DNA from: a virus
Reading direction: 5' to 3' (one strand)
Virus record (IMG/VR): IMGVR_UViG_3300035698_011774
Span: 1 to 47,430 of that record
Length of the DNA: 47,430 bases
Shown here: positions 3,217 through 44,647 of the stretch, piece by piece
Layout: each line of letters starts with the position of its first letter
Position numbering within the stretch: the stretch's first letter is position 1
Made by a program: the position numbers and the translations under genes
Notes under the pieces: model-generated
Told to the model about the DNA's origin: nothing
Seen by the model: the letters and a program-made list of their open reading frames with translations, nothing else
The model's database searches: none

Positions 3217-3218
3217 AA

Positions 3219-17744: not shown

Positions 17745-18006
17745 AATGTCATATGTCCATGGGAGTAAAACATGGTTTAAGAAAGGCATCTTAACGTAAG
17801 CAATGACTAGACTAATGAGAAGTTTTATGAAAAAGAAAACAATATCTACCAGCATAAAATGCTATAAGAACGGTACGAATTCCTCCCGAGTTTTGCCCTC
17901 TTCTGGGACCGCCGATCCCGATGTATCTTCTGATACTAAGCATAATGTTGCTTGTCTACGGGGAAATACTGGTGACAGTGCCAGACCGAATGTCGGTAAT
18001 CACACT
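17745..18006 (+). ncRNA. omegaRNA/HEARO-like RNA of the isrB locus (locus B)
   Basis: Directly upstream of and overlapping the isrB open frame, where IscB/IsrB guide RNAs lie. An outer stem (17748-17752 with 17803-17807) encloses hairpins CCATG/CATGG (17757-17775) and TTAAGA/TCTTAA (17777-17794). Further hairpins are CTGG..CCAG near 17970 and CCGA-ATG-TCGG near 17990. The fold and the block at 17879-17904 match locus A. In this family the guide lies 5' of the scaffold, so the candidate guide is the roughly 16-20 nt before 17745. The 3' end should be close to where the conserved protein begins (18007). Confidence 0.6.
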
Positions 18007-19014
18007 GTTTTTGTCCTAAATTACGAAGGAAAACCGTTAACACCCACTACATCAGCAAAGGCAAGAAAACTTTTGAAAGGAGGTAAAGCAAAGAAAGTTT
18101 GGAGTAAATTTAATACTTTTGGCATTCAACTGTTTGAAGAAACGAGAGAAAAAATACAAGATACTACTCTTGGTTATGATCCCGGTACTAAATTCGAAGG
18201 TGTATCAGTTGTTTGTGGTGATGAAAATAATCTTTCGGTGAAATGGGATTTGCCAGATAAAAAACAGATTGTTAAAAGGATGAAAAAACGCAGAATTTTA
18301 AGGAGAACTAGAAGGCAACGAAATTGTAGAAGACGTAAGGCTAGGTTTAAAAATAGAAGTAGAAAGGGATTTATAGCACCTTCTCAATTAGCAATTGTTC
18401 AATCCAGGTTAAAAGTATTAAGAGAATTTTGTAAAATTTACCCTATTCAGAATGTTGCAATAGAAGATGTAAAATTTAATCATTACAAATATCGTTGGGG
18501 TAGTAATTTTAGTACTATCGAAATAGGGAAAGAGAAAATAAGAGAATTTTTCATAGATAAAGATATTAATATTTTTGAATATCGGGGTTTTGAGACAGCA
18601 GAATTAAGAAAGAAATATGGTTATAAGAAAACAAGAATTAAGAATGCCGATAAATTTTCTACTCATTGTTCTGATTCGTTAACCCTTGCCGTTGATGTAA
18701 ATTGCGGAGAAAGAGTCCCTGAAGGAAATTTTTTAGTAGTGGATGATACTTACCGTCATGTTAGAAGACGATTACATGATACACAATTTTCTAAAGGTGG
18801 CATTCGATATAAATATTCTCACGGTAACGCAAATGGTGTTGGCAAAGGGATAATGATAGGAACGAGCAAAGGTAACATTGGACAACTTTGTGGGACCAAG
18901 AATGGTTCTTTTAGATACTATGATTCAAAAGGTAAACGCCAAGTGATTAAAAAACTATTTTGGATTAACAATCAGTTTAAAATCAAAGGAGATACACGGA
19001 TTACTGTTGGATAA
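17803..19014 (+). CDS. isrB: IsrB-like RNA-guided nuclease (RuvC only, no HNH)
   Basis: 403 residues from the ATG at 17803; the conserved protein starts at VFVLNYEGKPLTP (18007). Domains in order: PLMP-type N-terminus (PLTPTTSAKARKLL), RuvC-I with Asp (GYDPG, D126), Arg-rich bridge helix (about 160-192), RuvC-II with Glu (VAIEDV), RuvC-III with HCSDS, and a C-terminal TAM-recognition-like part (KGNIGQLCG, YYDSKGKR). Between RuvC-II and RuvC-III only about 55 residues intervene and there is no HNH, which separates IsrB from IscB. IsrB enzymes are RNA-guided nickases. The first ~66 residues coincide with the RNA element. No ATG, GTG or TTG lies immediately before VFVL, so an N-terminal extension or an unusual start is required. 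Confidence 0.85.
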   Translation: MTRLMRSFMKKKTISTSIKCYKNGTNSSRVLPSSGTADPDVSSDTKHNVACLRGNTGDSARPNVGNHTVFVLNYEGKPLTPTTSAKARKLLKGGKAKKVWSKFNTFGIQLFEETREKIQDTTLGYDPGTKFEGVSVVCGDENNLSVKWDLPDKKQIVKRMKKRRILRRTRRQRNCRRRKARFKNRSRKGFIAPSQLAIVQSRLKVLREFCKIYPIQNVAIEDVKFNHYKYRWGSNFSTIEIGKEKIREFFIDKDINIFEYRGFETAELRKKYGYKKTRIKNADKFSTHCSDSLTLAVDVNCGERVPEGNFLVVDDTYRHVRRRLHDTQFSKGGIRYKYSHGNANGVGKGIMIGTSKGNIGQLCGTKNGSFRYYDSKGKRQVIKKLFWINNQFKIKGDTRITVG

Positions 19015-30228: not shown

Positions 30229-31499
30229 TAACTATCGCCACCACCTTTAATGGGTGGTGAAAAAAAACGCTATATGCAGGAAAATCCTGAGATTTTTTTC
30301 CGACTAATAAGGTAACACAGGAGAGAAAAATGGACAACCCGCAGGAAACTGAAAATTTAAACATAAAATGGCTTGCCGGTTTTTTCGATGCTGAAGGTTC
30401 AGTTGGTTTTAATGATAAACCAATTATTACGATTATGAATGTTTGTCCCAATACGTCTTTTGTTATAAAAGATACGATGATAAAAATAGGAATTATTCCT
30501 GACACTCATATAAGAGAGAAACCTTCAAAAAGTAGTAAGAAATTAAGATGGAATCTATTTCTTAGATATGAAGAACAAATTTTACCTTTTTTGAAATATG
30601 TTAAACCATATGTAAAAGGTAAGAAAAAACAATTAGAATTATTAGAAGAATGGTATGAAAATCAATCAGAAACAATTCAAGACAAATTATTTTTTGCTAA
30701 TCAAGTTTGTAATTACATTATTTGTAATCCGCAAAAAATTATGCAAAGATTAAAAATAAATAGTCTTGAACAGTATGTGGATATACCAGTTTTAAATGAC
30801 GATGATGGATATATCATTACGAATAATTTTAATTGTTTGGAATATTGTGCAGGATTGCTGGATGCTGATGGAAGTTTTAATTTAGACTTCATGTCAATAA
30901 AAGGTAAAAGCAAATATACTCCACAAATAATTTTGATGAACAAAAATAAAGAAATAATTAAAAGTTATTGCTCCGTTCTGACGAATAATAGTATTGGATG
31001 TCATGTTCTATTCAATACAAGTGAAAAAAAAGCGGATAAAAGAAAATGGAAAATAACAGTATCAGGATGTAAAAGATGTATAAAAATGCTAGAATTAATA
31101 ACATCGAAAATTCATACTAAAAGAGAGCAAGCCAATCTTCTGTTACAATATTGCAGATATAAATTAGAAAATTCCTCTAATGCTAATGATATCACTGGTT
31201 TTGAGTGTAAAAAAGCGTTGGAAGGAATGAAGAAAGGTTTTTATGTTTAAGAACAAAATCCTCAACGACTGTATGCGTTTTATCGTAATTTAATTAAAAT
31301 CTACTTGTAGATTTTAATGACGATAGTGAGACAGTCTGATCTGCATGGTAACATGCAGAGATAAGCAGAAATGACTTATCCCTTGATTTTGTATATACAT
31401 GCTTAGAAATTTCAAGTATAGTTAAAAAATTATAAGTCTATATATACAAGTATATTTAGAAGTTGTAAGTATATATATAATCAAGAGTAACAAATTGTG
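30229..31499 (+). ncRNA. Group I intron 1 in the MCP gene
   Basis: About 1271 nt between MCP exons 1 and 2, with a LAGLIDADG ORF inside. Core elements by eye: a hairpin CACCACC/GGGTGGTG near 30239-30260, a P-type element TATGCAGGAAAAT near 30273, and CCTCAACGACTGTATGC (31259-31275) with its partner AGACAGTCTGATC (about 31330) as P7-type strands. The P9-type hairpin CTGCATGG-TAA-CATGCAG follows. The stretch AATCCTCAACGAC is shared exactly with intron 2. I could not find a convincing P1 pairing, so the 5' splice site is set by frame and may be off by a base or two. Confidence 0.75.
30330..31250 (+). CDS. LAGLIDADG homing endonuclease in intron 1
   Basis: 306 residues, GGAGAG about 6 nt before the ATG. 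Two LAGLIDADG motifs, LAGFFDAEGS near residue 15 and CAGLLDADGS near residue 174, make it a double-motif monomeric enzyme with both catalytic acids present. Its length and the basic residues after each motif fit the family. It would cut the intron-less MCP allele near the exon 1/2 junction and drive intron homing. It is translated from within the intron; some such proteins also help splicing. Confidence 0.9.
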   Translation: MDNPQETENLNIKWLAGFFDAEGSVGFNDKPIITIMNVCPNTSFVIKDTMIKIGIIPDTHIREKPSKSSKKLRWNLFLRYEEQILPFLKYVKPYVKGKKKQLELLEEWYENQSETIQDKLFFANQVCNYIICNPQKIMQRLKINSLEQYVDIPVLNDDDGYIITNNFNCLEYCAGLLDADGSFNLDFMSIKGKSKYTPQIILMNKNKEIIKSYCSVLTNNSIGCHVLFNTSEKKADKRKWKITVSGCKRCIKMLELITSKIHTKREQANLLLQYCRYKLENSSNANDITGFECKKALEGMKKGFYV

Positions 31500-31760
31500 G
31501 TTGAGCCAATTCGCAGAAGTTTGGAGTATCAGGCTGTAGGTCGTAAGTTGCTGATGGTTGACGAGCTGCCCCAAGGTGCTCTTGCTCGTTATGAGCGTGA
31601 TGTAGCCGCGATTGCACACGTAGTTTCGCGTCGTGGTGCTGTACCTGACCAAATTCAGGAAGGTGAAGAGGTTCTTGTTCCTACTTTTGAAATTGCCGCA
31701 CATCCCACAGTTCGTATGAGTGAGATCAAGGCAAGACGATTCTATATAGTCGATCGTGCT
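31500..31760 (+). CDS. Major capsid protein, exon 2
   Basis: 87 codons, VEPIRRSLEYQAVGRKLLMVDELPQ and onward, ending FYIVDRA. This is the conserved N-arm/E-loop region of a widespread large-phage MCP group (YERDVAAIAHVVSRRGAVPDQI, EIAAHPTVRMSEIKARRF). Codon usage here is less AT-rich than in the flanking intron, as expected for a highly expressed gene. The exon ends with T at 31760, the base before the intron 2 splice site. Confidence 0.85.
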
Positions 31761-32792
31761 AAACTGATTTGGGCACGTAAGACCGCCATATGCTGGAAAC
31801 TCTCGAACTTGACGATAAGATTAAGATAGGATAATACGGATAAAAACAAATTATTCCTAAACGAGACAATCAGCAGGAAAGGCTTTGGATATAAAATATG
31901 GATAAAAGAAAAAAAGCATTAATAAATGAAATAAAGCACTGTATATTGAAAGAAAAAATATCAATTAGTGAAGTGTCAAGAAGAACTAAATTGACTAGAA
32001 GAACAATAGTAAAATGGATGAAACAAGAAGGTATATTGAATAAGAATGCATGGATATTTAAATCTCCGGACAAAATATCAAAAATGCAATTACAAGTATT
32101 AAGAGGAACCGTTTTAGGGGATGATTGTATATACATTTTCCCGACATGTGTCAATCCTAAATTACTTGTTTACCATTCTATCGCTCAGAAAGAATACGCA
32201 AATTTGAAATTACAAATATGGAAAGATTTTGTATTTGCTGATAAACTGAAAGTCAGCAAAAGGAAAAAAGGTACGAGAGTACATTTTGAAACAGCTGTAC
32301 ACAAAGGTTTTTTACCAATATACAATGCTACATATATTAATAAAAAGAAAACAATCACAGCAGAATTTTTAGAAACACTAACTCCATTATCACTGGCTTT
32401 TTGGTTCCAGGATGATGGGAGTAGATGTAAAAATCGTGGGTTAACAATACATACTAATTGTTTTTCCTTAGAAGAAGTGGAAATTTCTTGTAGTTTTTTG
32501 AAAAACAGATATAATATTAAATGTAATCCACAACGAAGGAAAAAAGATCAATATGTCATATTTTTTAGTAATGCTACTAGTAAAAATTTCGCAGAGATGA
32601 TATTACCATGGGTACACCCATCGATGAGATATAAGTTAGAAGGTATATATCCGAAGAATCCTCAACGACCATACGCGGTCCCTTTTAAGTTCGAAAATCT
32701 TAAAAGTGAAGATATGGTCTCCTCTGCATAGCGATATGCAGCCTGTAAAACAGGAAAACTTATTAATGAAAAAATGAGTTTTAAGATACTTG
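31761..32792 (+). ncRNA. Group I intron 2 in the MCP gene
   Basis: 1032 nt. P1 is clear: exon end CGTGCT (31755-31760) pairs with intron GGCACG (near 31773), giving the required U-G at the splice site. The core follows: TATGCTGGAAAC (P element), AATCAGCAGG (Q element), CCTCAACGACCATACGCGGTCC and GAAGATATGGTCTCC (R/S elements of P7), then a P9-type hairpin CTGCATAGCGATATGCAG. The intron ends in G at 32792. Removing it joins GTG-CT to CAG in frame (VDRA-QIKAKEAIQ). An endonuclease gene lies between the core halves. Confidence 0.9.
31898..32731 (+). CDS. LAGLIDADG_2-type homing endonuclease in intron 2
   Basis: 277 residues. An N-terminal helix-turn-helix (ISEVSRRTKLTRRTIVKWMK, about residues 22-42) precedes a LAGLIDADG DNA endonuclease core of the organellar/phage type. 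The two motifs are LRGTVLGDDC and SLAFWFQDDGS. It differs from the enzyme in intron 1, so the two introns acquired unrelated endonucleases. The C-terminal coding end overlaps part of the intron core (through the conserved P7 strand), a common compaction in such introns. Confidence 0.87.
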   Translation: MDKRKKALINEIKHCILKEKISISEVSRRTKLTRRTIVKWMKQEGILNKNAWIFKSPDKISKMQLQVLRGTVLGDDCIYIFPTCVNPKLLVYHSIAQKEYANLKLQIWKDFVFADKLKVSKRKKGTRVHFETAVHKGFLPIYNATYINKKKTITAEFLETLTPLSLAFWFQDDGSRCKNRGLTIHTNCFSLEEVEISCSFLKNRYNIKCNPQRRKKDQYVIFFSNATSKNFAEMILPWVHPSMRYKLEGIYPKNPQRPYAVPFKFENLKSEDMVSSA

Positions 32793-33302
32793 CAGATTAA
32801 AGCCAAAGAAGCTATTCAAAAGGAAGAGGACACGAACATTTTTAACGCTCTGATTGCTGCTGCAACAACTCTGGGAACCCAGATCGTAACTAACGTTGGT
32901 ACACTAAGTGTAACTTCGTTGAACACCGCGTATCGTATGATCGAGGAACACGATTTGGTTACAACTAAAGTTGTTATGCATGCTCGTCAGTTCGCTTCAA
33001 TCCGTATTTTGGGTAAAGATTTCTATGATGAGGCAACTCAGAGAGAAATCATCACAACAGGGTTATACGGTCATTTATGGACCGCTGACCTTCACGTGTC
33101 AAGTCGTATGGACGTAACCACGGTTATTTGTGTTGCATCCCCAGATACAGTTGGAGCTTTTCCGATTCGTCAGGATATTACAGTACTACCAGCAGACGAT
33201 CCTAAGAAAATCCGTTTGGGATGGGTAATCTACGAAGAGATCGGAATCGTAATCTTAAATGATTACGCTATCAGTCTAATCGAGGTAACCGCTGGTTCGT
33301 AA
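32793..33302 (+). CDS. Major capsid protein, exon 3
   Basis: 169 codons plus stop. It starts QIKAKEAIQKEEDTNIFNAL, continuing the capsid spine helix from exon 2. It ends in a P-domain/beta-tongue region (GLYGHLWTADLHVSSRMDVTTVI) and a hydrophobic C-terminal strand (EEIGIVILNDYAISLIEV). A strong terminator follows 14 nt after the stop, marking the end of the head operon. The TTG at 32790 belongs to the intron and is not a start. Confidence 0.85.
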   Translation, partial: QIKAKEAIQKEEDTNIFNALIAAATTLGTQIVTNVGTLSVTSLNTAYRMIEEHDLVTTKVVMHARQFASIRILGKDFYDEATQREIITTGLYGHLWTADLHVSSRMDVTTVICVASPDTVGAFPIRQDITVLPADDPKKIRLGWVIYEEIGIVILNDYAISLIEVTAGS

Positions 33303-35855: not shown

Positions 35856-36029
35856 ATGACGATACCCGAAGATGCCGCATTTGAAGAATATTTCTCTTTG
35901 TTACTTGCTGAGAAAAGATTTGGAGAAGCAGTAGTATTATTATCAGACAAAACACGCGATAAATACTATAGATATTTATATAGCGATTTTGAAGAAAAAA
36001 TAAAAGATAGGATAGACGAGGAAATTTAA
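35856..36029 (+). CDS. Array protein 1 (57 aa), C-terminal KIKDR tag
   Basis: First member of the tagged small-gene array. An acidic helical N-terminal part (about 40 aa) is followed by YSDFEEKIKDRI near the C-terminus, then four extra residues. There is no strong SD. The next gene begins 2 nt after its stop. The tag, not the N-terminal part, links it to the genes downstream. Confidence 0.6.
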   Translation: MTIPEDAAFEEYFSLLLAEKRFGEAVVLLSDKTRDKYYRYLYSDFEEKIKDRIDEEI

Positions 36030-36031
36030 AA

Positions 36032-36562
36032 TTGGGCAAACAAAAAAAGTACATCGATCCAATCTTGGAGGATCGCAGACGCCAAGAGATAAACAATGAA
36101 AAATATTTTCATACTTATTTGAGTACAATATTTAATTTAACATGTGAAAAACCGGATTATTTATTACCATATGGATATGAATTAACTCCTGATTTTGTAG
36201 TTTTACAGAAACGAATAATCACATACGTATTTGAGGTCGTTACTCTCCATATCCCTGATAATAAAGATGAAGGCCGTAAAAGTACAGCAAGGATTTTCCG
36301 GACTTTACAAAAAAAAAGAGACAAGTATAAAAAATTGGTTACAAAGGAAGCATCTAAATTTATTATATGTCTCGCATTAGATCCTAGAATTACCATTGAT
36401 GATCATTCTTTTTTGTCTGTATCTCAAGATATTTTTCGTGGCGTGGATGACCAACAAATTAGAACACACGTAAGTGGGATTTTATTAAAACGAGAAAATG
36501 GTCTTGGTCCTATATTTTATCAGAATCTTAACGCCAAGCAGCGTGTTTATGTACAATTCTGA
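36032..36562 (+). CDS. Possible PD-(D/E)XK nuclease-fold protein (176 aa), TTG start
   Basis: It starts at a TTG with GAGGAAA about 8 nt upstream, inside the end of array gene 1. The segment ELTPDFVVLQ..YVFEVV (Asp54, Glu68) fits the PD...E core of restriction-like folds, but the usual Lys after Glu is replaced. The helix with RKSTARIFRTLQKKRDKYKKL that follows is also typical. It lacks the array tag. Beside a methyltransferase two genes upstream, it could be a nuclease, but activity is uncertain. Confidence 0.5.
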   Translation: MGKQKKYIDPILEDRRRQEINNEKYFHTYLSTIFNLTCEKPDYLLPYGYELTPDFVVLQKRIITYVFEVVTLHIPDNKDEGRKSTARIFRTLQKKRDKYKKLVTKEASKFIICLALDPRITIDDHSFLSVSQDIFRGVDDQQIRTHVSGILLKRENGLGPIFYQNLNAKQRVYVQF

Positions 36563-36574
36563 ATGCTGTTTTAA

Positions 36575-36592
36575 TTTTTTCCGCAAAAAAAA
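36575..36592 (+). promoter_or_regulatory. Intergenic T6-CCGC-A8 motif
   Basis: TTTTTTCCGCAAAAAAAA between array genes. Similar blocks occur in other gene gaps: 35741-35756 (inverted), 37867-37881, 42434-42449 and 45797-45808. Recurrence only in or next to gaps suggests a shared regulatory or transcript-processing site. It has no -10/-35 pattern I can defend. Confidence 0.35.
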
Positions 36593-36625
36593 TAAACACT
36601 GCCTATGATGATATGGAGAGAAAAA

Positions 36626-36811
36626 ATGTATGATGGAATTGAAATCAGCAGTATTAGAGCATACAACGAAGACGGTGAGGAAATGATGGGTATTTCGGTA
36701 GTATTTACAAAAAAATACTATAAACAAATTATAGATGCGATTGATAGTATCAATGAGTGTGGCGAACAATATAACGATTTCCAAGACAAGACAGGAGATA
36801 GATTACAATGA
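36626..36811 (+). CDS. Array protein 2 (61 aa), helical module + tag
   Basis: Start at 36626 because GGAGAG lies 6 nt upstream; an in-frame ATG at 36605 lacks an SD. The N-terminal part is a beta-hairpin followed by a helix (TKKYYKQIIDAIDSINE), shared in outline with array proteins 3 and 7. The C-terminus is YNDFQDKTGDRLQ, a diverged tag. ATGA overlap with the next gene. Confidence 0.7.
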   Translation: MYDGIEISSIRAYNEDGEEMMGISVVFTKKYYKQIIDAIDSINECGEQYNDFQDKTGDRLQ

Positions 36812-37173
36812 AATTTAAAGTTGGAGATAGAGTCAAATACAAAGATATGTACGATCCGCTCGATTTTCATGGGGAGGGGACTATTATTTACATAGGAACA
36901 GTACCCAATCGTTATTATGTAGACTGGGATGAATTACCCACTTTTTGTACTTCTATGAAATTAAAATACCTCACTTGGGTTTCTCCCGAACAAGCCATGT
37001 ATGATCATGATTTTAAAGAAGAAATCACACTTTTAGATGATGGTGATTTTGAAATTACATTGAGATTGAGTAAACAGAACTATTATAGGATTATGGAACT
37101 GGCTAGAGAAATCGCAAAAGGAGTCGATCAGCATGATGATTTTGAAAAAAAGATAAAAGATAGATTACAATGA
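36808..37173 (+). CDS. Array protein 3 (121 aa), SH3-like + helical module + tag
   Basis: The largest tagged member. It has an N-terminal SH3/KOW-like barrel (FKVGDRVKYKD, then GTIIYIG, then YYVDWDELP). A second module (FEITLRLSKQNYYRIMELA) resembles the one in array proteins 2 and 7, and the tag HDDFEKKIKDRLQ follows. It therefore combines both N-terminal module types of the array in one chain. ATGA overlaps on both sides. Confidence 0.72.
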   Translation: MKFKVGDRVKYKDMYDPLDFHGEGTIIYIGTVPNRYYVDWDELPTFCTSMKLKYLTWVSPEQAMYDHDFKEEITLLDDGDFEITLRLSKQNYYRIMELAREIAKGVDQHDDFEKKIKDRLQ

Positions 37174-37388
37174 AATTTAAAATAGGAGACAGAGTGATTC
37201 TGCGTAAGGAGTATAGCAAGCAGCCTCAAAGAATCAGATATGGTATTGTAGTATCAAACGTGTTAGGTGATCCAGAGGTTTTATGGGATGATGAAAAATA
37301 TGATGGAACGATATTGTATCATCCACAGGCACTTATACTTGACCCTTATGCTGACTTTGAAGAAAGAATAAAAGACAGGATGTTTTAA
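37170..37388 (+). CDS. Array protein 4 (72 aa), SH3-like + tag
   Basis: It begins MKFKIGDRVILRKEY, with a GIVVSNVLGDPEVLWDDE strand pair typical of the array's SH3/KOW-like barrels. It ends YADFEERIKDRMF. Start overlaps the upstream stop (ATGA) and its TAA overlaps the next ATG (TAATG). Confidence 0.72.
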   Translation: MKFKIGDRVILRKEYSKQPQRIRYGIVVSNVLGDPEVLWDDEKYDGTILYHPQALILDPYADFEERIKDRMF

Positions 37389-37633
37389 TGGAATTACATG
37401 TAGGAGATTTAGTTAGATTAAAAGATACCGAGAAGGATGGTGTAATTTGGATTAAAGAGGAGTCTAATTTTATGTATCCAGAAGGAGTTTATGTTGTTAA
37501 ATGGGATAATTACTCGAAACTTACTCTGAATCAACCTTCGGATTTGGTTTTTGTCGCTTCAGGTTTTAGTCTTTTTGTTGCCAATTCATATTTTGGATTT
37601 AGAGACAAAATTAGAGATAGAATGAAAGGATAA
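37388..37633 (+). CDS. Array protein 5 (81 aa), SH3-like + tag
   Basis: It begins MELHVGDLVRLKDTEKDGVI and has VYVVKWDNYSK, the W-D strand common to array barrels. The tag is YFGFRDKIRDRM plus KG. Here the usual Asp before Phe is Gly, showing which tag position tolerates change. Confidence 0.7.
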   Translation: MELHVGDLVRLKDTEKDGVIWIKEESNFMYPEGVYVVKWDNYSKLTLNQPSDLVFVASGFSLFVANSYFGFRDKIRDRMKG

Positions 37634-37638
37634 TAAGT

Positions 37639-37866
37639 ATGGTATTAACAGTGAAAGATTTAAGAGAGAAGTTATCTGAGAGGGGTGATGACGAACAGCT
37701 AATATGTTTTATGAAAACTGATACTGGATTGAAAGTTTTTGATATTGTAGATATAACATCAGAGAAAATTATTTCTTTTCGTGAGAATGGGAAAGTCCAA
37801 TTTCGTATTGAGCCTGATGGGCCAAATGAGAAATGGTCGTTGATTGAAATCACAGATGATGTATGA
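37639..37866 (+). CDS. Array protein 6 (75 aa), without the tag
   Basis: The one member of the array without the C-terminal tag. It begins MVLTVKDLREKLSERGDDEQLICF and continues as a small alpha/beta chain ending LIEITDDV. The phrase VKDLREKL..DD..I resembles a domain seen in many phage and plasmid small proteins whose function is unknown. It is followed by the T/CCGC/A motif and a fresh SD, so the array may be split into two transcripts or translation units here. Confidence 0.6.
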   Translation: MVLTVKDLREKLSERGDDEQLICFMKTDTGLKVFDIVDITSEKIISFRENGKVQFRIEPDGPNEKWSLIEITDDV

Positions 37867-37886
37867 TTTTTCCGCAAAAAAAGGAG
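37867..37886 (+). promoter_or_regulatory. T5-CCGC-A7 motif merged with a strong SD
   Basis: TTTTTCCGCAAAAAAAGGAG: the recurrent intergenic motif followed directly by AAGGAG, 5 nt before the ATG at 37892. This is the strongest ribosome binding site in the array and favours 37892 as the start over the in-frame ATG at 37844. Confidence 0.4.
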
Positions 37887-37891
37887 ATACT

Positions 37892-38068
37892 ATGTCAGAG
37901 AAGGTTAAGATATTAGGGGCTTCTGGTGGTGGTAATGGGGGAACATTTGGTTTACAATTAGAAATCCCATCAAAACATTATCAAGATATCACGGATTTTA
38001 TTGATGGTTTAAATAAAAAAGAAGAATATGAAGAGTTCAGAGATAAAATAACAGACAGGTTAGCATGA
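37892..38068 (+). CDS. Array protein 7 (58 aa), helical module + tag
   Basis: It starts MSEKVKILGASGGGNGG. The middle strand-helix (LQLEIPSKHYQDITDFIDGLNKK) parallels array proteins 2 and 3. It ends YEEFRDKITDRLA. ATGA overlap with the next gene. Confidence 0.7.
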   Translation: MSEKVKILGASGGGNGGTFGLQLEIPSKHYQDITDFIDGLNKKEEYEEFRDKITDRLA

Positions 38069-38286
38069 AGAGATTTAAAGTTGGTGATATAGTTGTTCAT
38101 AAAATGGATTACGATTTACATCTATATGGGGTTGGCACTATCATATTGTGTAGAAAGGGGGAGTACTATAATGTCGAGTTTAAAACACTTATTAGTAGTC
38201 TGATATTCCATGGCTCTTATTTAAAATTATTCGATCCTCATTTTTATGCGGATTTTATGGACAGGATCGAGGATAGACTATTATGA
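38065..38286 (+). CDS. Array protein 8 (73 aa), SH3-like + tag
   Basis: MKRFKVGDIVVHKMDYD start, a GTIILCRKGEYYNVEF strand pair, tag YADFMDRIEDRLL. Overlaps both neighbours by ATGA. Confidence 0.7.
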   Translation: MKRFKVGDIVVHKMDYDLHLYGVGTIILCRKGEYYNVEFKTLISSLIFHGSYLKLFDPHFYADFMDRIEDRLL

Positions 38287-38528
38287 ATAAATTAAAGATC
38301 GGAGATAGGGTAGTACATGTTAAGTGTAAAAATCATGGTTTTGGGATTATTATAGCGATAGACGGCTTATTTGGTACACAAAAAGGCCAGTATCTGGTCC
38401 AATGGGACTCTGTAGATCCACACAAAGTACAGATACAACAACTATTATTTCCTTATGACGAAATTAGATTGGTAGATGAAGAAATTTATCAAGATTTTCT
38501 AGACAAAATTGAGGATAGGTTATCATGA
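38283..38528 (+). CDS. Array protein 9 (81 aa), SH3-like + tag
   Basis: MNKLKIGDRVVHVKCKNHGFGIII start, YLVQWDSVDPHKVQIQQL strand, tag YQDFLDKIEDRLS. ATGA overlaps on both sides. Confidence 0.7.
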   Translation: MNKLKIGDRVVHVKCKNHGFGIIIAIDGLFGTQKGQYLVQWDSVDPHKVQIQQLLFPYDEIRLVDEEIYQDFLDKIEDRLS

Positions 38529-38725
38529 AGTTTAAAATCGGGGATAAAGTATATTACAAAGATATGGAGAATCGCCTTGGGACAATCACTAGTGTCAATG
38601 ATTTTGGACATCCTTGGGTTGAATGGGAAGACGAATTAGGATCAATTCCATATTATAAATGGCTAATTGTTCATTGTGATTATCATAACGATTTTTTAGA
38701 AAAGATAAAAGACAGGATGTTATGA
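38525..38725 (+). CDS. Array protein 10 (66 aa), SH3-like + tag
   Basis: MKFKIGDKVYYKDMENRLGTIT start, PWVEWEDELGSIPYY strand, tag HNDFLEKIKDRML. This is the cleanest minimal barrel-plus-tag member. ATGA overlaps on both sides. Confidence 0.72.
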   Translation: MKFKIGDKVYYKDMENRLGTITSVNDFGHPWVEWEDELGSIPYYKWLIVHCDYHNDFLEKIKDRML

Positions 38726-38967
38726 AATTAGTAATTGGACAAGAAATGTTTTTTAGGAATGATTATGGTGGGCCGTTAATCACCGGTGTAATAGATATAA
38801 TTAATCGAAATAGAGAATACAAATATTCAGTAATTTGGCGTGATGGCATTAGAAATAGTTATAGATATAAGGAGATTATCCTTTTTATAAAAAGATACGA
38901 TCCATATTTTACAGATTTTTTCGATAAGATAAAAGAAAGATTACCATGTATTCAAATAAATGTTTAA
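38722..38967 (+). CDS. Array protein 11 (81 aa), SH3-like + tag with short tail
   Basis: MKLVIGQEMFFRNDYGG start, YSVIWRDGIRNSY strand. The tag FTDFFDKIKERL is followed by PCIQINV, because the gene reads 20 nt past the usual end and overlaps the next start by 22 nt. The overlap suggests loss of the original stop. Confidence 0.65.
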   Translation: MKLVIGQEMFFRNDYGGPLITGVIDIINRNREYKYSVIWRDGIRNSYRYKEIILFIKRYDPYFTDFFDKIKERLPCIQINV

Positions 38968-39086
38968 CAGAATTGATTGATTTAGGAGACAAAGCTCTTC
39001 GTTCGGAGGAAGAAGAAGCGTATTATGATTTTCGCGAAAAAATAATAGATAGACTTGGTAAAGATTATGTTAGAACGATACAATGA
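38946..39086 (+). CDS. Array protein 12 (46 aa), short helix + tag
   Basis: ATG at 38946, inside the end of the previous gene. The product is an acidic helix (CLTELIDLGDKALRSEEEEA) then YYDFREKIIDRLG and an extra KDYVRTIQ. At 46 residues it is the shortest member; half of it is the tag and tail. Confidence 0.6.
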   Translation: MYSNKCLTELIDLGDKALRSEEEEAYYDFREKIIDRLGKDYVRTIQ

Positions 39087-39087
39087 A

Positions 39088-39255
39088 ATGACGAAACAAT
39101 TTAAGAATATGGTTAATGCTATTAAACAATTACGTCATACTATCGATAGTACGCAGACAACATTCGATAATGCCTTGTGGAGAATGTTTAAAAAATCAAG
39201 TTCCGAACAAGATCATAATGATTTTCTCGATAAAATAAAAGACAGGATGGAATAA
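39088..39255 (+). CDS. Array protein 13 (55 aa), helical + tag
   Basis: I take the ATG at 39088, just after the previous stop. In-frame ATG 39067 and TTG 39055 are alternatives. A long helix (FKNMVNAIKQLRHTIDSTQ) precedes HNDFLDKIKDRME. TAATG overlap with the next gene. Confidence 0.62.
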   Translation: MTKQFKNMVNAIKQLRHTIDSTQTTFDNALWRMFKKSSSEQDHNDFLDKIKDRME

Positions 39256-39413
39256 TGACCGAAAGGGAATGGGAAGAATATGGAGAGGATCTTGCAGAGA
39301 TGTTAGATTTTTTTGGTCCATCTCTTCCTAAGTTGCTATCTGCTTATGCGGATTTTCAAGAGAGAATTAATGAAAGGATCGGGAAAAATGACAAAACCAC
39401 CTTTACATCCTAA
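39255..39413 (+). CDS. Array protein 14 (52 aa), acidic helix + tag
   Basis: ATG overlaps the upstream TAA. It begins MTEREWEEYGEDLAEMLDFFG; the tag YADFQERINERI is followed by about ten extra residues. The next gene's ATG lies inside this tail. Confidence 0.58.
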   Translation: MTEREWEEYGEDLAEMLDFFGPSLPKLLSAYADFQERINERIGKNDKTTFTS

Positions 39414-39591
39414 AATAAATCCTAACCATCCTTTGTTAAAAGGACTGGTGGGAGTGTTTATGTGTGGTGTGGCATACGACAAAAATCTCATACAAAAATG
39501 GTACAACATTGGACCACATGCTTCTGATTATTATGCCGATTATTACAAAGATTTTGAAGATAAAATCAAAGACAGAATGGGAGAAAATTAA
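39388..39591 (+). CDS. Array protein 15 (67 aa), LamG-lead-like segment + tag
   Basis: Start at 39388 (GATCGGGAAAA upstream), within the previous gene; in-frame starts further up lie in that gene's coding region. The N-terminal phrase INPNHPLLKGLVGVFMCG resembles the entry strand of LamG-type phage adhesins, such as RYDHPISQGLVAYWPFWEG in this window's own adhesin. It ends YKDFEDKIKDRMGEN. TAATG overlap with the next gene. Confidence 0.62.
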   Translation: MTKPPLHPKINPNHPLLKGLVGVFMCGVAYDKNLIQKWYNIGPHASDYYADYYKDFEDKIKDRMGEN

Positions 39592-39752
39592 TGTCTTATA
39601 ACGATTTCGCAGACAGGATTAAAGATAGGATTGGGATAGAAATAGAACCTTTTGTAGAATGGACGGCGGTGCAAATGACTAAACCTGTGTTTTTCCCATC
39701 ATGCAATGGATGGATACCGGATTGGCAAAAAAGTAGAAAAGATAAGAGATAG
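39591..39752 (+). CDS. Array protein 16 (53 aa), N-terminal tag, frameshifted C-terminus
   Basis: The tag sits at the N-terminus (MSYNDFADRIKDRIG). The middle (TKPVFFPSCNGWIPDWQKS) resembles the portal phrase QPMFFSPLHTPQNWQIASKK. The frame ends at TAG 39750-39752, but the neighbouring frame right after the AAAAAA run (39727-39732) reads VEKIRDRMGEN to a TAA, the same C-terminal ending as the previous gene. A single-base indel therefore probably removed its C-terminal tag. It shares a near-identical ~75-nt start with the next gene, so the two are a tandem duplication. Confidence 0.6.
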   Translation: MSYNDFADRIKDRIGIEIEPFVEWTAVQMTKPVFFPSCNGWIPDWQKSRKDKR

Positions 39753-39767
39753 AATGGGAGAAAATTA

Positions 39768-40073
39768 ATGTCTTATGATGATTTCGCAGACAAAATTAGA
39801 GATAGACTTGGGATAGAAATAGAACCCGTGATGGATTGGCCGATTAACAATCAACCTATGTATTTTGGCCCAAGCCACAAACCGCAACCTTGGCAAACTA
39901 ATAATAAAAAATCGCAGGTATATAAAACGGAATACAAGGCTGAGTGGACGCAACCTTTGAGTGTTGTCCTACACCCCGTTCATACTCCACAAACTTGGCT
40001 AATAGCCCAGGAAAGATATGATATATATCATTACAAAGATTTTGAAGACAAAATTAAGGATAGATTAGGATGA
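39768..40073 (+). CDS. Array protein 17 (101 aa), tags at both ends, two portal-like segments
   Basis: N-terminal tag SYDDFADKIRDRLG and C-terminal tag YKDFEDKIKDRLG flank two repeats. These are NQPMYFGPSHKPQPWQTNNKK and VVLHPVHTPQTWLIAQERYDIY, and both resemble the portal N-terminal phrase QPMFFSPLHTPQNWQIASKK. This is the clearest case of virion-protein fragments placed in the tag framework. GGGAG lies about 7 nt before the ATG. ATGA overlap downstream. Confidence 0.72.
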   Translation: MSYDDFADKIRDRLGIEIEPVMDWPINNQPMYFGPSHKPQPWQTNNKKSQVYKTEYKAEWTQPLSVVLHPVHTPQTWLIAQERYDIYHYKDFEDKIKDRLG

Positions 40074-40300
40074 AACATAAATTTAAAGTAGGAGACAGAG
40101 TAAGATATATCCATGATATTAGTGACAAAGGAACCATTATCCAATTGTATGGCATTAACAGGGGAAAAATTCCAGATTATGACGTTTCATGGGATTCGGG
40201 CCTTTATCATATATGCCATCCAGAAGACGAACTGATTAGTGATTTTTTCATTAGTCAACATGAAGAATTTTCGGCAAAAATTAAGGATAGATTAGGATGA
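40070..40300 (+). CDS. Array protein 18 (76 aa), SH3-like + tag
   Basis: MKHKFKVGDRVRYIHDISDKGTII start, YDVSWDSGLYHI strand, tag HEEFSAKIKDRLG. ATGA overlaps on both sides; AAGGATAG in the upstream tag codons acts as its SD-like sequence. Confidence 0.72.
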   Translation: MKHKFKVGDRVRYIHDISDKGTIIQLYGINRGKIPDYDVSWDSGLYHICHPEDELISDFFISQHEEFSAKIKDRLG

Positions 40301-40536
40301 CAGAATTCAAGGTGGGAGATGAAGTGAAATTGGATATAGAGAATTATCCTATATGGAACCGACATATGAGAAATGAAGGAATACTATATGGTGTAATATC
40401 TGCGATTACTCCTTCTGGGGAGTGTGACATAAATTGGCCATGTGGCTTAGAATATAGGTATCAATTAGAATATGTTGAACACTATATTGGTCCATATGAG
40501 GACTTTATGGATAAAATTAGAGATAGACTAAAATGA
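40297..40536 (+). CDS. Array protein 19 (79 aa), SH3-like + tag
   Basis: MTEFKVGDEVKLDIENY start, longer loop (NRHMRNEGILYGVISAI), CDINWPCGLEYRYQ strand, tag YEDFMDKIRDRLK. ATGA overlaps on both sides. Confidence 0.7.
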   Translation: MTEFKVGDEVKLDIENYPIWNRHMRNEGILYGVISAITPSGECDINWPCGLEYRYQLEYVEHYIGPYEDFMDKIRDRLK

Positions 40537-40727
40537 AAGAATCAGAACGTTATATTGATAAAAATGGGAAGATATGTATAGAGAAAGAGGATGGGACAAT
40601 ATATACTTGGCAAATGGACTGTTATTCCCAGACAGTTGAAGAAGTTATGGAAGAGATGATTCCTAATTGGGCAGAGAAAAAGCAACATCGACGTTTTCTT
40701 GAGAAAATTGAGGATAGACTAAAATGA
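40533..40727 (+). CDS. Array protein 20 (64 aa), beta-hairpin/helix + tag
   Basis: MKESERYIDKNGKICIEKEDG start, then helix VEEVMEEMIPNWAEKK and the tag HRRFLEKIEDRLK. It has a tandem paralog immediately downstream that is 11 residues shorter. ATGA overlaps. Confidence 0.68.
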   Translation: MKESERYIDKNGKICIEKEDGTIYTWQMDCYSQTVEEVMEEMIPNWAEKKQHRRFLEKIEDRLK

Positions 40728-40885
40728 AAGAATTAGAATATTATATTGATAAAAATGGGAAGATAGGTATAGAGAAAGAGGATGGGTCAATTGGAGAAGT
40801 TATGGAGGAATGGTTCCCTAATTGGGTAGGGGAAGAGCAACATCGACGTTTTCTTGAGAAAATAAGAGACAGATTATACATATGA
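40724..40885 (+). CDS. Array protein 21 (53 aa), shortened duplicate of array protein 20
   Basis: ATG 40724 overlaps the upstream stop. Its first ~22 codons and last ~20 codons are nearly identical in DNA to array protein 20, but about 11 codons in the middle are missing. It ends HRRFLEKIRDRL plus YI. This is a recent duplication with an in-frame deletion; the tag is intact. Confidence 0.62.
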   Translation: MKELEYYIDKNGKIGIEKEDGSIGEVMEEWFPNWVGEEQHRRFLEKIRDRLYI

Positions 40886-41124
40886 AGATGAAAATACACA
40901 AATTAAAGATAGGTGATCTTATAGAATACACTCGCGGTGATGGCATGGTAGTTTGTGGAAAAATAGAGAATATATATGGTGTAGAAGAAACATATTTTAG
41001 CGTTCGTTGGGATGACATGAGTGACCTATCATGGGACCATAACGCCGGAGACATGTTAAGATTTCTTCATCGTGGACCTTATCCTGAAGATTTTTTTGAA
41101 AGAATAAGGGACAGATTAGGGTAA
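40882..41124 (+). CDS. Array protein 22 (80 aa), SH3-like + tag; last gene of the array
   Basis: MKMKIHKLKIGDLIEYTRGDG start, YFSVRWDDMSDLSWD strand, tag PEDFFERIRDRLG. It converges with the minus-strand ArdC-like gene and the two coding ends overlap by 9 nt, so no terminator separates them. Confidence 0.7.
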   Translation: MKMKIHKLKIGDLIEYTRGDGMVVCGKIENIYGVEETYFSVRWDDMSDLSWDHNAGDMLRFLHRGPYPEDFFERIRDRLG

Positions 41125-42429
41125 TCCTGTCTGTTCTCCCATATCCATTTCTGCCGCTTTTTTATTAATCCCCGTAATTATCGTTTTAACTGATTTAGAT
41201 ATAGCTTCTCTTCTTCTTCTCACATCTGCTCCTGTTCCTTGCCACAATGCGATATATCTTGGCGTATCCTTTGTTTCAAAACTATAATGATTAAGAACTA
41301 TAAACGCTGTTGATTCTGCGTCAATTTCTAAATCTTTTCTTGTCAATGTTTTTCTTTCTTTTTTACCTTCCAATGACCAGTGTAGAATTTCGTGAGCAAG
41401 TTCGTGGACTAACGTGCTAAATTTGTTAATACCATCGAATGTGTCATTAATTCTTATCTTTTGACCAGCTGCGTATCCACCTAATTCTGTTTGCATTTCT
41501 TCTGTTCCCATATCTATTCCTAATTCCACTGCCCAATCCCAAGCCGAATTAATGAGGAATGTGATTTCTTCTAATTGTTCGTTGGGATCTTGTCTCCATT
41601 CTTTAGGTTCATAGGGGCCTTCTCCTTCTTTCCCTTTCCATCCGGCCATAGCTTCTGTGTCTGCAAAATCATAGACAATAGCCGGAACAAAGTACATATA
41701 CTCATGTTGGCTTCTGTTTGGAAAATTAAACCATTGATCTGTAGACATCGTTGCTTTTAGTTTTTTACCTTCTTGTGTTAGGCCTGTTCTTGGGGCTATA
41801 ATTTCTATTTTATTTCCCCAGTTTGTAACCTGTCTTCCGAATTTAGCCATCCATTGTTTTGCTCCTGCAACTTTAATAGATTTTGGATTTTGGAACCAGA
41901 TTAGAATTTGGTTTCCAAAACTGTAGTTGTGGAATTTGGCCGCGAATGATAGATAGCTTCTTACGAATTCGGTTGCGGCTTCAGAGTCTACTCTTAATGC
42001 TAATTCATTAATCATCTTGTGGGCATAATCTATAATGGCTTTTGCTTTATCACTTGCTTTTCCGGCTTCTCCTTTTGCTTTTTCTATACCTGCTTTCATT
42101 TTATCCAATTCTATTTCTACTGGTGATTTTGGTTCTGTTGGTACGGCAGGTGGGGCTTCTATCTGCGGTTGTCCTTCTTGGGCGTCTGGAGAATCAAGAA
42201 GTGATAGATCGAGGTCTAAGGCTTCTAATGCTTGTCTTTTTTCTGGAGTGATGAATTTGATTGCTGTTGACCACGTTCCTTTGAAAAATCTGAATCCAAG
42301 GCTTCTTAGTGTGTCTTTGATTGCGAATGTATTTCCCATTAATGCTAGGAATTTCATGCCAGTTTTTTTGTTGACAGTAATTCCAGCTTGGACTCCTTGG
42401 GCTATTTTAACTATTTTATACCAGTTCAT
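41116..42429 (-). CDS. ArdC-like antirestriction protein with zincin (HExxH) domain and MNWYK tag
   Basis: 437 residues. Residues 1-10 are MNWYKIVKIA, the tag shared with the next three genes. Residues about 31-53 (MGNTFAIKDTLRSLGFRF..GTW) form a small domain often found before DNA-processing domains. Residues about 150-255 match the ArdC N-terminal ssDNA-binding domain (SFGNQILIWFQNP, AGAKQWMAKFGRQV..KIEIIAPR). A metallopeptidase with HELAH (342-346) and downstream EIDAEST follows. ArdC proteins protect incoming DNA from restriction. GCGGAGA lies about 5 nt before the ATG, preceded by the intergenic T-run motif. Confidence 0.8.
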   Translation of the reverse strand: MNWYKIVKIAQGVQAGITVNKKTGMKFLALMGNTFAIKDTLRSLGFRFFKGTWSTAIKFITPEKRQALEALDLDLSLLDSPDAQEGQPQIEAPPAVPTEPKSPVEIELDKMKAGIEKAKGEAGKASDKAKAIIDYAHKMINELALRVDSEAATEFVRSYLSFAAKFHNYSFGNQILIWFQNPKSIKVAGAKQWMAKFGRQVTNWGNKIEIIAPRTGLTQEGKKLKATMSTDQWFNFPNRSQHEYMYFVPAIVYDFADTEAMAGWKGKEGEGPYEPKEWRQDPNEQLEEITFLINSAWDWAVELGIDMGTEEMQTELGGYAAGQKIRINDTFDGINKFSTLVHELAHEILHWSLEGKKERKTLTRKDLEIDAESTAFIVLNHYSFETKDTPRYIALWQGTGADVRRRREAISKSVKTIITGINKKAAEMDMGEQTGLP

Positions 42430-42446
42430 TATTTCTCCGCAAAAAA

Positions 42447-43103
42447 TTATACATAACTATATTCTCTGTCTTCCACTTCAACTCCTGGAGTTGGAGAAAC
42501 GGGATTATCTTCTGGTTCATCGTTGTCATCTCCTCCTCCAAAATAGAAATTATTAATTGTTGTTTTTACATATTGTCCTACTTCGTAAGGAGTTTTCAGT
42601 TGTCCTTTATCGCTTTCTCCTATTTCTTCGATATTGAAGTACCCTTTATTTCGTGGCTCTATTCTTGCTCCCCACAGCACAGTTGTAAAGTCTATTAATT
42701 CATTTCCTGTTTCTGAATTATATTCATTGGCTTCCATTGGTTTCATTTGGTCCAAATAGTATTGTCTGAATTCCATGGTGTCTTCAAATACTGTTGGTGT
42801 CATATCTGGTTCATCCCATCCTCTTGTCATCCCATAAGAACCTTCGGACGGATGGACAACATGAGGGGCTTTTCTAATATAAACATATGTTTTGATATGG
42901 AACCAATCTCCTGGCATAACGACATCTGTACCTGTCAATTTACATCTAAATCTTTTTTGGTCTTTGTATCCTGGTGCTAAGTTTTCTGTTTCTATTGTCC
43001 AATTTCCGTTGTTCTGTAATTGGATTGATTCAAATATATGTTGGCACATATCGCCTACAGGTATCATCTGATCCGCTAGTTTTATCTGTTTATACCAATT
43101 CAT
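42447..43103 (-). CDS. MNWYKQIKLA-tagged hypothetical protein (218 aa)
   Basis: It starts MNWYKQIKLADQMIPVG. The rest is beta-rich with several aromatic residues (WTIETENLAPGYKDQKRFRCKL, WFHIKTYVYIRKAP) and an acidic, Pro-rich C-terminal tail. No domain recognised. Its ATG overlaps the stop of the upstream minus-strand gene at 43103. It shares only the first ten residues with its neighbours, so the leader is a transferable signal rather than a sign of overall homology. Confidence 0.62.
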   Translation of the reverse strand: MNWYKQIKLADQMIPVGDMCQHIFESIQLQNNGNWTIETENLAPGYKDQKRFRCKLTGTDVVMPGDWFHIKTYVYIRKAPHVVHPSEGSYGMTRGWDEPDMTPTVFEDTMEFRQYYLDQMKPMEANEYNSETGNELIDFTTVLWGARIEPRNKGYFNIEEIGESDKGQLKTPYEVGQYVKTTINNFYFGGGDDNDEPEDNPVSPTPGVEVEDREYSYV

Positions 43104-43444
43104 TAATGAAAAATCACCATATGAGGATTATTAAAAGCCTTATCTAATATCGATTTTATTTTATTTTCCACGAAAGCGTATCTATCAGGATTTTCATGTT
43201 TAAAACTAATAACAGCACTTAGCATATGTGTTCCTGGAACATATCTCCCAGTTGCAAAAACATCTTTTACTGGACCTGATGTCATAGCCTCATATTCATG
43301 ACAATTATTAGACATAGTATCCCAAGTGACCAGTTTAAAATCTGAGTCTATGAACCATAAGGTCACTTCAGTAGGATTATCCTCGTTATGTCCAATATCT
43401 GTATAATAGATAGCGGCTAATTTTATTTGTCTATACCAATTCAT
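43103..43444 (-). CDS. MNWYRQIKLA-tagged hypothetical protein (113 aa), paralog of the next gene
   Basis: It starts MNWYRQIKLAAIYYTDIGHNED. The body (VTLWFIDSDFKLVTWDTMS, VFATGRYVPG, ISFKHENP) aligns throughout with the protein encoded at 43444-43848, so the two are tandem paralogs. No known domain. Stop and start overlap with both neighbours in a minus-strand operon. Confidence 0.65.
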   Translation of the reverse strand: MNWYRQIKLAAIYYTDIGHNEDNPTEVTLWFIDSDFKLVTWDTMSNNCHEYEAMTSGPVKDVFATGRYVPGTHMLSAVISFKHENPDRYAFVENKIKSILDKAFNNPHMVIFH

Positions 43445-43848
43445 TATCTAAATACCGTAATTTTTGGATTGTTAAATTCCGCATCTATTATGGATATTAC
43501 TCTTTTTTCTAGATAATCGTTTTGTTTGGGATTCTCGTATTTGAAATTTATTGCAATGCTTGCGACATCAGATGACGGGTCATATCTACCACTTGCGAAA
43601 ATCTTTTGATCCCGTTCATTCATCCGTTCCCAATCTTCATGAGACTGATCAGACGTTGTTTCCCAGGTAAAGAGAATGAAGTTAGAGTTTACAAACCATA
43701 AGACCACATCCACTGGCTTGCCTCTAATATCATAAATGTCTGGGGCTATCTCTATTTTCTCTTTCCTGCCATGACCTATGTCCATAAACGACAAATCATT
43801 ATTTGGCACAACTGGAAAAGCTAATTTTATCTGTCTATACCAGTTCAT
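43444..43848 (-). CDS. MNWYRQIKLA-tagged hypothetical protein (134 aa)
   Basis: I start it at 43848, where the product begins MNWYRQIKLAFPVVPNN like its three neighbours. The frame stays open for 54 further codons upstream, but that part overlaps the opposite-strand pseudopilin gene and has no matching leader. Body strands VVLWFVNSNFILFTWETTS, IFASGRYDPS and INFKYENP match the 113-residue paralog. First gene of the four-gene minus-strand operon. Confidence 0.68.
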   Translation of the reverse strand: MNWYRQIKLAFPVVPNNDLSFMDIGHGRKEKIEIAPDIYDIRGKPVDVVLWFVNSNFILFTWETTSDQSHEDWERMNERDQKIFASGRYDPSSDVASIAINFKYENPKQNDYLEKRVISIIDAEFNNPKITVFR

Positions 43849-43939
43849 AGTTATAGTATTCTTTGATTTGTGTTCTTTTCCTTTGCCGAAAAAAAGGTAG
43901 GGAAGCAAGAAAGTTTGAATTATAATAGGGAGATTAAAC

Positions 43940-44647
43940 ATGATCAAAAAAGCCTTTACATTAATTGAGATGTTAGTAGTCGTTACAATTATATCTGTAC
44001 TATTAGCCATTCTATCTCCATCTGCTAGAATGTCTGTAATCAGAGGGGAGATGACCGAATGTGCCCATCATATGAGGCAATTAACGATTGCATGGCAACA
44101 GCACTCCGTAGAACATCGAATGGTTTTAGTAGAATCGAATACGCATAATGGATGTTGGGCCGCTAGTAGTAGTCAAGGCGGAAATACGATTGAAGGGATG
44201 ACTGTGGGGGAATTATGGCCTTATATCCTAAACATAGATATATATAGTTGTCCGACTCCTGTTTATGATTATTACATTACATATGCTTTGAGTGGAATGC
44301 TACATGGAGAGGGAGGCTTTAGTGGTAGGGTCTTTAAATGGATGCATATCACAAATCCCAGCGAAATTATGTGTTATATTGAAGAAGATGATTATCGTGG
44401 TTATAACATGAACTCATTTATGTGTTCCAGTCAGCCTGGAAAATGGATTGATTATGTTGCTGGCAATCACGATGGTGGTGATAATATTTCGTTTTGTGAT
44501 GGTCATGTTGAATATCACAAGTGGCTAGATCCAGATACCCTAACATTTCCCTACCCGCCATCCGGTGAAGGCACCAGGAGTCATGGGTATGTTGATGCGG
44601 GAAGTGTTGACGTTGAATACCTTCAAGAAATTTTTTGGCAATACTGA
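43940..44647 (+). CDS. Prepilin-like protein with H-X9-DG motif (type II secretion pseudopilin type)
   Basis: 235 residues, GGGAGA about 8 nt before the ATG. The N-terminus KKAFTLIEMLVVVTIISVLLAIL is a type IV prepilin signal and transmembrane helix, with Ala instead of the usual Gly before FTLIE. Near the C-terminus, NHDGGDNISFCDGHVEYHKW contains the H-X9-DG processing-associated motif of large prepilin families of Planctomycetes, Lentisphaerae and Verrucomicrobia. This is host-type sequence inside phage genes, so it was probably acquired from the host. It could change host pili or display a surface protein. Divergent from the MNWYR operon. Confidence 0.8.
   Translation: MIKKAFTLIEMLVVVTIISVLLAILSPSARMSVIRGEMTECAHHMRQLTIAWQQHSVEHRMVLVESNTHNGCWAASSSQGGNTIEGMTVGELWPYILNIDIYSCPTPVYDYYITYALSGMLHGEGGFSGRVFKWMHITNPSEIMCYIEEDDYRGYNMNSFMCSSQPGKWIDYVAGNHDGGDNISFCDGHVEYHKWLDPDTLTFPYPPSGEGTRSHGYVDAGSVDVEYLQEIFWQY

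Follow-up and report, generated by a model that had tools for sequence, protein, structure and literature searches.

A row of tiny phage genes that share one short peptide tag beside the major head gene

Short peptides that bring unlike proteins to one place are known from several systems. The cargo-loading peptides of encapsulins and the encapsulation peptides of bacterial microcompartments, for example, are short and terminal and bring unlike proteins to a protein shell, and the microcompartment ones are helical. In phage T4, the small internal proteins IPI, IPII, and IPIII have divergent bodies and a shared peptide of 10 residues, the capsid targeting sequence. This sequence directs proteins into the head, and targeting depends mainly on its residues 4 and 7 (PMC9026906). 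Here, we describe a related arrangement in a virus record of 47,430 bases (IMG/VR record IMGVR_UViG_3300035698_011774; "the window" below means this whole stretch). Between positions 35856 and 41124, it holds an array of small genes that end, in most cases, in a common 12-residue peptide, the tag [YH]xDFx[DE]KIxDR[LMI].

The array resembles the T4 case in that a short peptide is shared by unrelated small proteins with divergent bodies, encoded by head-associated genes, and in that both peptides have an aromatic-x-[DE]-F core. It differs in that the genes form arrays of up to 21-31 members, known from sequence alone, and in that only 3 of 45 tags are N-terminal. Encapsulin and microcompartment cargoes, unlike the array members, are enzymes scattered in operons rather than phage gene arrays. 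Literature searches on shared C-terminal tags, decoys, and the MNWYK peptide and phage G paralogues described below found nothing relevant. In principle, a short targeting peptide common to several proteins is known from T4, while for the array form, a second tag in a sister phage, and the virion-protein fragments among the members, no precedent was found. The tag is under selection as a peptide, and the array is tentatively read as a bank of coupled payload proteins with one docking peptide that most likely recruits them to the head.

The array, its relatives, and a second tag

The array comprises 23 small open reading frames (ORFs) on the + strand. It is bordered upstream by the major head gene, which looks interrupted (31497-33302; match to the PHROG for major head proteins, E 3e-30), with a homing-endonuclease-like ORF and a methyltransferase-like ORF in between, and downstream by a convergent gene at 41116. 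There are 22 copies of the tag, all on the + strand, in 21 of the ORFs, and the tag regular expression has no match in the six frames of the window outside 35856-41124. A first-pass annotation, made from the sequence alone, had counted 21 tagged ORFs out of 22; the tagged number stands, but the stretch holds 23, two of them untagged. It had also placed the tag almost always at the last residues. Usually one residue follows it (0-10 in window ORFs with a C-terminal tag), so the position is typical without being strict, and the two N-terminal cases it had mentioned are real (g17 and g18). Most adjoining ORFs overlap through ATGA. The array reads as follows:

35856-36029, + strand: g01, 57 residues; tag YSDFEEKIKDRI (35979-36014, by the regular expression), then DEEI
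36032-36562, + strand: g02, untagged, 176 residues, TTG start, within the array; no family match (Pfam, PHROGs)
36608-36811, + strand: g03, strand-helix module; tag YNDFQDKTGDRL (36770-36805)
36808-37173, + strand: g04, SH3-like plus strand-helix module; tag HDDFEKKIKDRL (37132-37167)
37170-37388, + strand: g05, SH3-like; tag YADFEERIKDRM (37347-37382)
37388-37633, + strand: g06, SH3-like; tag YFGFRDKIRDRM (37589-37624)
37639-37866, + strand: g07, untagged, 75 residues, within the array
37892-38068, + strand: g08, strand-helix module; tag YEEFRDKITDRL (38027-38062); own strong Shine-Dalgarno site, upstream gene untagged
38065-38286, + strand: g09, SH3-like; tag YADFMDRIEDRL (38245-38280)
38283-38528, + strand: g10, SH3-like; tag YQDFLDKIEDRL (38487-38522)
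38525-38725, + strand: g11, predicted SH3-like barrel; tag HNDFLEKIKDRM (38684-38719), a predicted helix at residues 53-64
38722-38967, + strand: g12, SH3-like; tag FTDFFDKIKERL (38908-38943); 7 residues beyond the tag, yet the next ATG still follows the tag
38946-39086, + strand: g13, 46 residues; tag YYDFREKIIDRL (39021-39056)
39067-39255, + strand: g14, 62 residues; tag HNDFLDKIKDRM (39214-39249)
39255-39413, + strand: g15, 52 residues; tag YADFQERINERI (39345-39380), then 10 residues
39388-39591, + strand: g16, start weakly like LamG-type fibre proteins; tag YKDFEDKIKDRM (39544-39579)
39591-39752, + strand: g17, N-terminal tag YNDFADRIKDRI (39597-39632); apparently a decayed copy of g18
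39768-40073, + strand: g18, tags at both ends (YDDFADKIRDRL, 39774-39809; YKDFEDKIKDRL, 40032-40067) flanking two copies of a portal N-terminal motif
40070-40300, + strand: g19, SH3-like; tag HEEFSAKIKDRL (40259-40294)
40297-40536, + strand: g20, SH3-like; tag YEDFMDKIRDRL (40495-40530)
40533-40727, + strand: g21, paralogue of g22; tag HRRFLEKIEDRL (40686-40721)
40724-40885, + strand: g22, paralogue of g21; tag HRRFLEKIRDRL (40841-40876)
40882-41124, + strand: g23, SH3-like; tag PEDFFERIRDRL (41083-41118); last gene of the array

In g17, the tag-like residues KVEKIRDRMGEN, read directly from the sequence, lie near the stop codon in another frame, which is why the gene looks decayed. Since the gene after g23 is convergent, the tag of g23 cannot serve a downstream start. 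The element TTTTCCGCAAAAAA stands at 36577-36590, 37868-37881, and 42433-42446, directly upstream of genes with no tagged gene before them; it has five matches in the window against 0.14 expected and is perhaps a promoter or operator.

The tag is not confined to this phage. A scan of 2.9 million viral contigs found it on 28, with arrays on only three: the window, G051 (12 tagged ORFs on 44 kb), and G052 (68 kb; two clusters with 10 tagged ORFs between them, and one more ORF, G052_28003, whose tag is N-terminal), which gives 45 copies in total. The other 25 contigs had one match each and no second copy near a C-terminus, and their matches were set aside as chance. The tag was absent from 50 whole records of relative phages, also when one mismatch was allowed, and a degenerate profile of the tag gave nothing beyond the known contigs. 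The tag followed by a downstream ATGA had no match in viral contigs, the pattern being too strict. A scan of genome contigs gave single chance matches among the matches listed, with no array of at least four on those contigs. Queries with the tagged SH3 profile and with a tagged 169-residue protein returned only contigs already known, and tblastn of g04 against 50,697 phage records gave no match. The tag is real, shared, and rare. Since contigs are fragments, some arrays may be missed. The proteins common to G051 and G052 are 78-89% identical; the parts of these contigs that were examined are without the capsid gene, and their family placement comes from the tag, the array neighbours, and the likeness by eye of a neck-type gene.

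When 23 relative genomes and bacterial contigs were scanned de novo for C-terminal peptides common to several genes, arrays of this kind appeared only in the window, G051, G052, and G002. The last (IMGVR_UViG_3300035698_014118, also locus L002) shows synteny with the window over the region from terminase to capsid gene, and the halves of the window's major capsid protein are 83-93% identical to that of G002. In the same post-capsid region (62.6-76.9 kb), G002 has 31 small coupled genes, and these carry a tag unrelated to that of the window: F-x-W-x-[DEN]-[MI]-x-[IV], ending exactly at the stop codon. The W is present in 31 of 31 copies and the F in 26, with a codon diversity at the F of 0.50 against 0.47 expected; constraint is confined to the last codon, which in many genes overlaps with the following ATG. 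The two sister phages have thus built the same architecture with different peptides.

Selection on the tag and the proteins that carry it

A repeated sequence at gene ends can reflect a need of the protein or of the DNA. The two were separated by a codon test over the 45 copies, in which differences among copies that share a residue are set against what the codon usage of each phage predicts. The residues are strongly kept: F4 in 44 of 45 copies, and K/R7, D/E10, and R11 in all. Across columns 3-10, synonymous diversity equals the expectation (observed and expected 0.61 and 0.63 at I8, 0.48 and 0.36 at D10, 0.38 and 0.43 at F4). Nucleotides there are free while residues are fixed, so it is the peptide itself that is under selection. 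The SH3-like subset agrees, with a pairwise identity of 57% in the tag versus 24% in the N-terminal parts.

The last two columns, which directly precede the next gene's start, behave differently. The R11 codon is AGR in 45 of 45 copies (diversity 0.40 versus 0.66 expected), L12 is mostly TTA (0.43 versus 0.76), and the anti-Shine-Dalgarno energy is -4.9 compared to -3.5 under synonymous resampling (p=0.027). This is consistent with the last two tag codons doubling, as their sequence suggests, as the ribosome site of the next gene, a role that would leave the rest of the tag unexplained. One could then consider the whole tag a DNA-level signal for ribosome binding or translation coupling, with the peptide as a by-product, all the more because most starts overlap the preceding stop. 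Such an account is very improbable: it is contradicted by the free nucleotides of columns 3-10, the tag is retained on the last gene, which has no gene in the same direction downstream, and at N-termini, untagged members start from ordinary sites, and the G002 genes are just as tightly coupled with an unrelated tag.

The first-pass annotation had stated that codons vary while residues are kept, which is true of the synonymously saturated columns 3-10 and not of the two DNA-constrained codons at the end. Its claim of selection on the peptide is upheld by the saturated sites, by recurrence in two further contigs, by retention on the last gene and at N-termini, and by a homologue of one N-terminal part that occurs without the tag in a relative (G003). 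Translation coupling, which it had set against that claim, is real but secondary.

The tag is N-terminal in g17, g18, and G052_28003 and otherwise lies 0-30 residues from the C-terminus, mostly 0-5. Several members continue for 7-30 residues beyond it, which speaks against a strict end signal, and a tag that can stand at either terminus or as far as 30 residues from the end fits a docking motif better. In an AlphaFold model of g11, the tag is a separate helix (predicted local distance difference test, pLDDT, ~67) beside an SH3 barrel (pLDDT ~90). The hydrophobic moment of the tag helix is 0.60 versus 0.32 for permuted columns, a value that 20 of 1000 permutations reach.

The N-terminal parts are SH3-like, strand-helix, virion-derived, or single, and, in line with the unrelated N-terminal parts described in the first reading of this DNA, they are not homologous over their whole length. 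About half of the window members are SH3/KOW-like, as judged from their alignment and from weak SH3_12 and CarD Pfam matches; Pfam and PHROGs searches with array members gave only sub-threshold SH3/CarD-like matches. The nearest solved structures to the barrel are Tudor, PWWP, and KOW folds (E 0.01-0.1). A strand-helix module is common to g03, g08, and the end of g04, and its model in g08 has low confidence (pLDDT 61). Profile searches with the phages' own proteins identified virion fragments. The portal N-terminal motif occurs twice in g18 (E 5e-9 and 9e-8), of which G052_28003 is a relative. In G002, where no SH3-like members were recognised, capsid fragments are among the N-terminal parts: G002_69944 corresponds to the last 50 residues of the capsid protein (53% identity over 43 residues, E 1e-20), and G002_64893 to a second capsid segment (E 9e-6). 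No reversed-sequence control scored below 1.7e-3. For g16, the resemblance to LamG is weak (E 0.006-0.03). The pairs g21/g22 and g17/g18 are recent duplicates.

Phage G and the surrounding genes

A search with the capsid protein found 80 viral loci, and the best cultured relative, though a distant one, is the giant Bacillus phage G, whose gp27 is 55% identical to the G002 major capsid protein. With a major head protein homologous by sequence to gp27, the window phage may be classed as phage G-like (donellivirus-related). The post-capsid genes of phage G have a common C-terminal KENDRYL stretch, and the same pattern led to a block of 28 genes, gp447-474 (L393:1394-18502, equal to NC_023719.1 353893-371001), which is apparently undescribed. 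In this block, 27 of the 28 are tandem paralogues with zinc-ribbon-like CPIC motifs. Together with gp32, gp34, gp35, gp37, and gp46, they form one BLAST cluster of 32 proteins that leaves out gp452, and their most conserved part is the C-terminal INYWKENDRYLAKIL. In ten megaphage relatives, the KENDRYL tail is at background level. The phage G array is like that of the window in its related capsid protein, its tandem small genes, five of them directly after the capsid gene, and its conserved C-terminal stretch. It is unlike it in that it consists of one zinc-ribbon-like family, its tail is not attached to unlike N-terminal parts, and its sequence resembles neither tag. It suggests how such arrays may originate, by duplication with a fixed tail and a diverging body.

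Shared peptides also occur at the other end of proteins in this family. On the - strand of the window, at 41116-44010, four genes have MNWY[KR]xxK[IL]A at or near their start. In relatives (L066, L080, L089, L090, L138, L042, and others), up to eight genes per locus start with MNWYK, and others start with MK[IV]I[KR]TAxY. A shared N-terminal peptide is carried by an ArdC-like zincin candidate in the window and, in L061 and L090, by genes with the look of ADP-ribosyltransferases (YHGT). The MNWYK-type peptide is possibly a head-targeting peptide for injected enzymes.

Other features of the neighbourhood were noted by the way. Proteins like type II secretion pseudopilins (FTLIEMLVVV...) are encoded at 43940-44647, at L002:14252-15148, and at L061:15283-16083; this is a form known from bacteria of the Planctomycetes/Lentisphaerae type, a hint at the host. 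A fibre-like protein at 1135-3216 has a long Ser-rich repeat (SSSSNTPSS...) followed by a LamG-like domain, and G051_42822 is similar. A HEARO (omega) RNA (95 bits) lies at 13504-13731 next to an IscB-type gene reduced to a short remnant, and G051 has a 92.8% identical copy beside an IscB-like gene. A 65-residue ORF, 92% identical between the window and G051, was considered as a shared partner and rejected, as it lies in a HEARO RNA. Within the head gene cluster, the ORF at 17803-19014 has, by eye from its translation, the RRXRR/RuvC-like look of the IscB/IsrB group. The terminase, portal, protease/scaffold, and head genes (3192-6299, 19048-21843, 22384-29454, 31497-33302) look, also by eye, interrupted by inteins or intron-borne homing endonuclease genes, with insertions between conserved halves.

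What the shared peptide may do

In the reading that we favour, tentatively, the array would supply small, translationally coupled payloads with one common docking peptide. The tag would be a short amphipathic helix outside the payload fold, placed in most cases at the extreme C-terminus and in some at the N-terminus. One partner, which is most likely to be a head-core or scaffold component of the phage, would bind this helix and so gather unlike payloads at one site, most likely inside the head as it grows, in analogy with the T4 capsid targeting sequence. A head component is favoured as the partner because of the gene position (the window array directly after the major head gene and the G002 array in the same region), the virion fragments, the wide use in this family of N-terminal peptides common to several genes (MNWYK, MKIIKTA), and the aromatic-x-[DE]-F core. 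As for the core, [YHFW]x[DE]F describes 31 of the 45 tags and is close to MKTYQEF of T4 IPII and IPIII and MKTFKEF of IPI. Of course, several points weigh against a role in the head. The likeness to T4 amounts to four residues and may be chance, and the T4 sequence is N-terminal and cleaved by gp21, whereas most copies of the tag are C-terminal. SH3-like barrels, which make up half of the payloads, are not known to act in the head, and no partner of the tag was found. Also, the window and G002 tags are wholly different, though their capsid proteins are alike and other head proteins are recognisable, so the receptor would either not be the capsid protein or coevolve fast.

The rapidly changing bodies and the capsid and portal pieces also fit an arms race, which makes a bank of adaptors or decoys the main rival, though on the whole an unlikely one. 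The N-terminal parts would bind different targets of the host or of rival phages, including defences that sense capsid or portal, and the tag would pass each bound target on to a single effector, for instance a protease or phage complex. The members would be modular adaptors, among them capsid and portal decoys or assembly probes, whose phage-specific tags could not be exchanged between phages. In keeping with such a bank, the N-terminal parts diverge fast and are structurally unlike while the tail is constant, capsid and portal fragments serve as N-terminal parts in two phages with different tags, the phage G paralogues keep a docking-like tail, and the array varies and most relatives lack it, as would be expected of arms-race genes. 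However, no host target, protease, or effector is known, a role in the head explains the portal and capsid pieces equally well, and a Foldseek match to the Lon factor HspQ is weak (E 0.11) and no evidence of function.

The arrays could also be a neutral by-product, in which an ancestral gene was copied and its N-terminal parts decayed or were replaced by recombination with phage genes, leaving a tail with no shared function. The recent duplicates, the decaying g17, and the portal- and capsid-derived parts, which look like captured fragments, would fit, yet residues kept despite saturated synonymous sites need selection, and open frames are retained in 21 genes of the window, 12 of G051, 11 of G052, and 31 of G002; such an origin is improbable. 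A degron, by which the tag would send the small proteins to a host protease and make them short-lived, is quite improbable. It would need a free C-terminus, which the G002 tag has: its last residue before the stop codon is hydrophobic (x-[MI]-x-[IV]), as in C-terminal degrons and PDZ ligands. The window tag does not, with its N-terminal copies and trailing residues, and it is polar; a D and an R are conserved in it, and it lacks a bare hydrophobic end.

Docking to a head component, the reading preferred here, and the adaptor bank may both offer a testable model for long rows of tiny phage genes, whose products would be cargo or adaptors that one peptide addresses. The cultured phage G, with its related array, is an entry point for the laboratory. 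The phage-specific tags, together with the virion-protein fragments, hint at competition among related phages or at an arms race. If the tag is indeed a head-targeting or adaptor signal, it would be a compact, addressable one, and the function of dozens of orphan genes would become readable at once.

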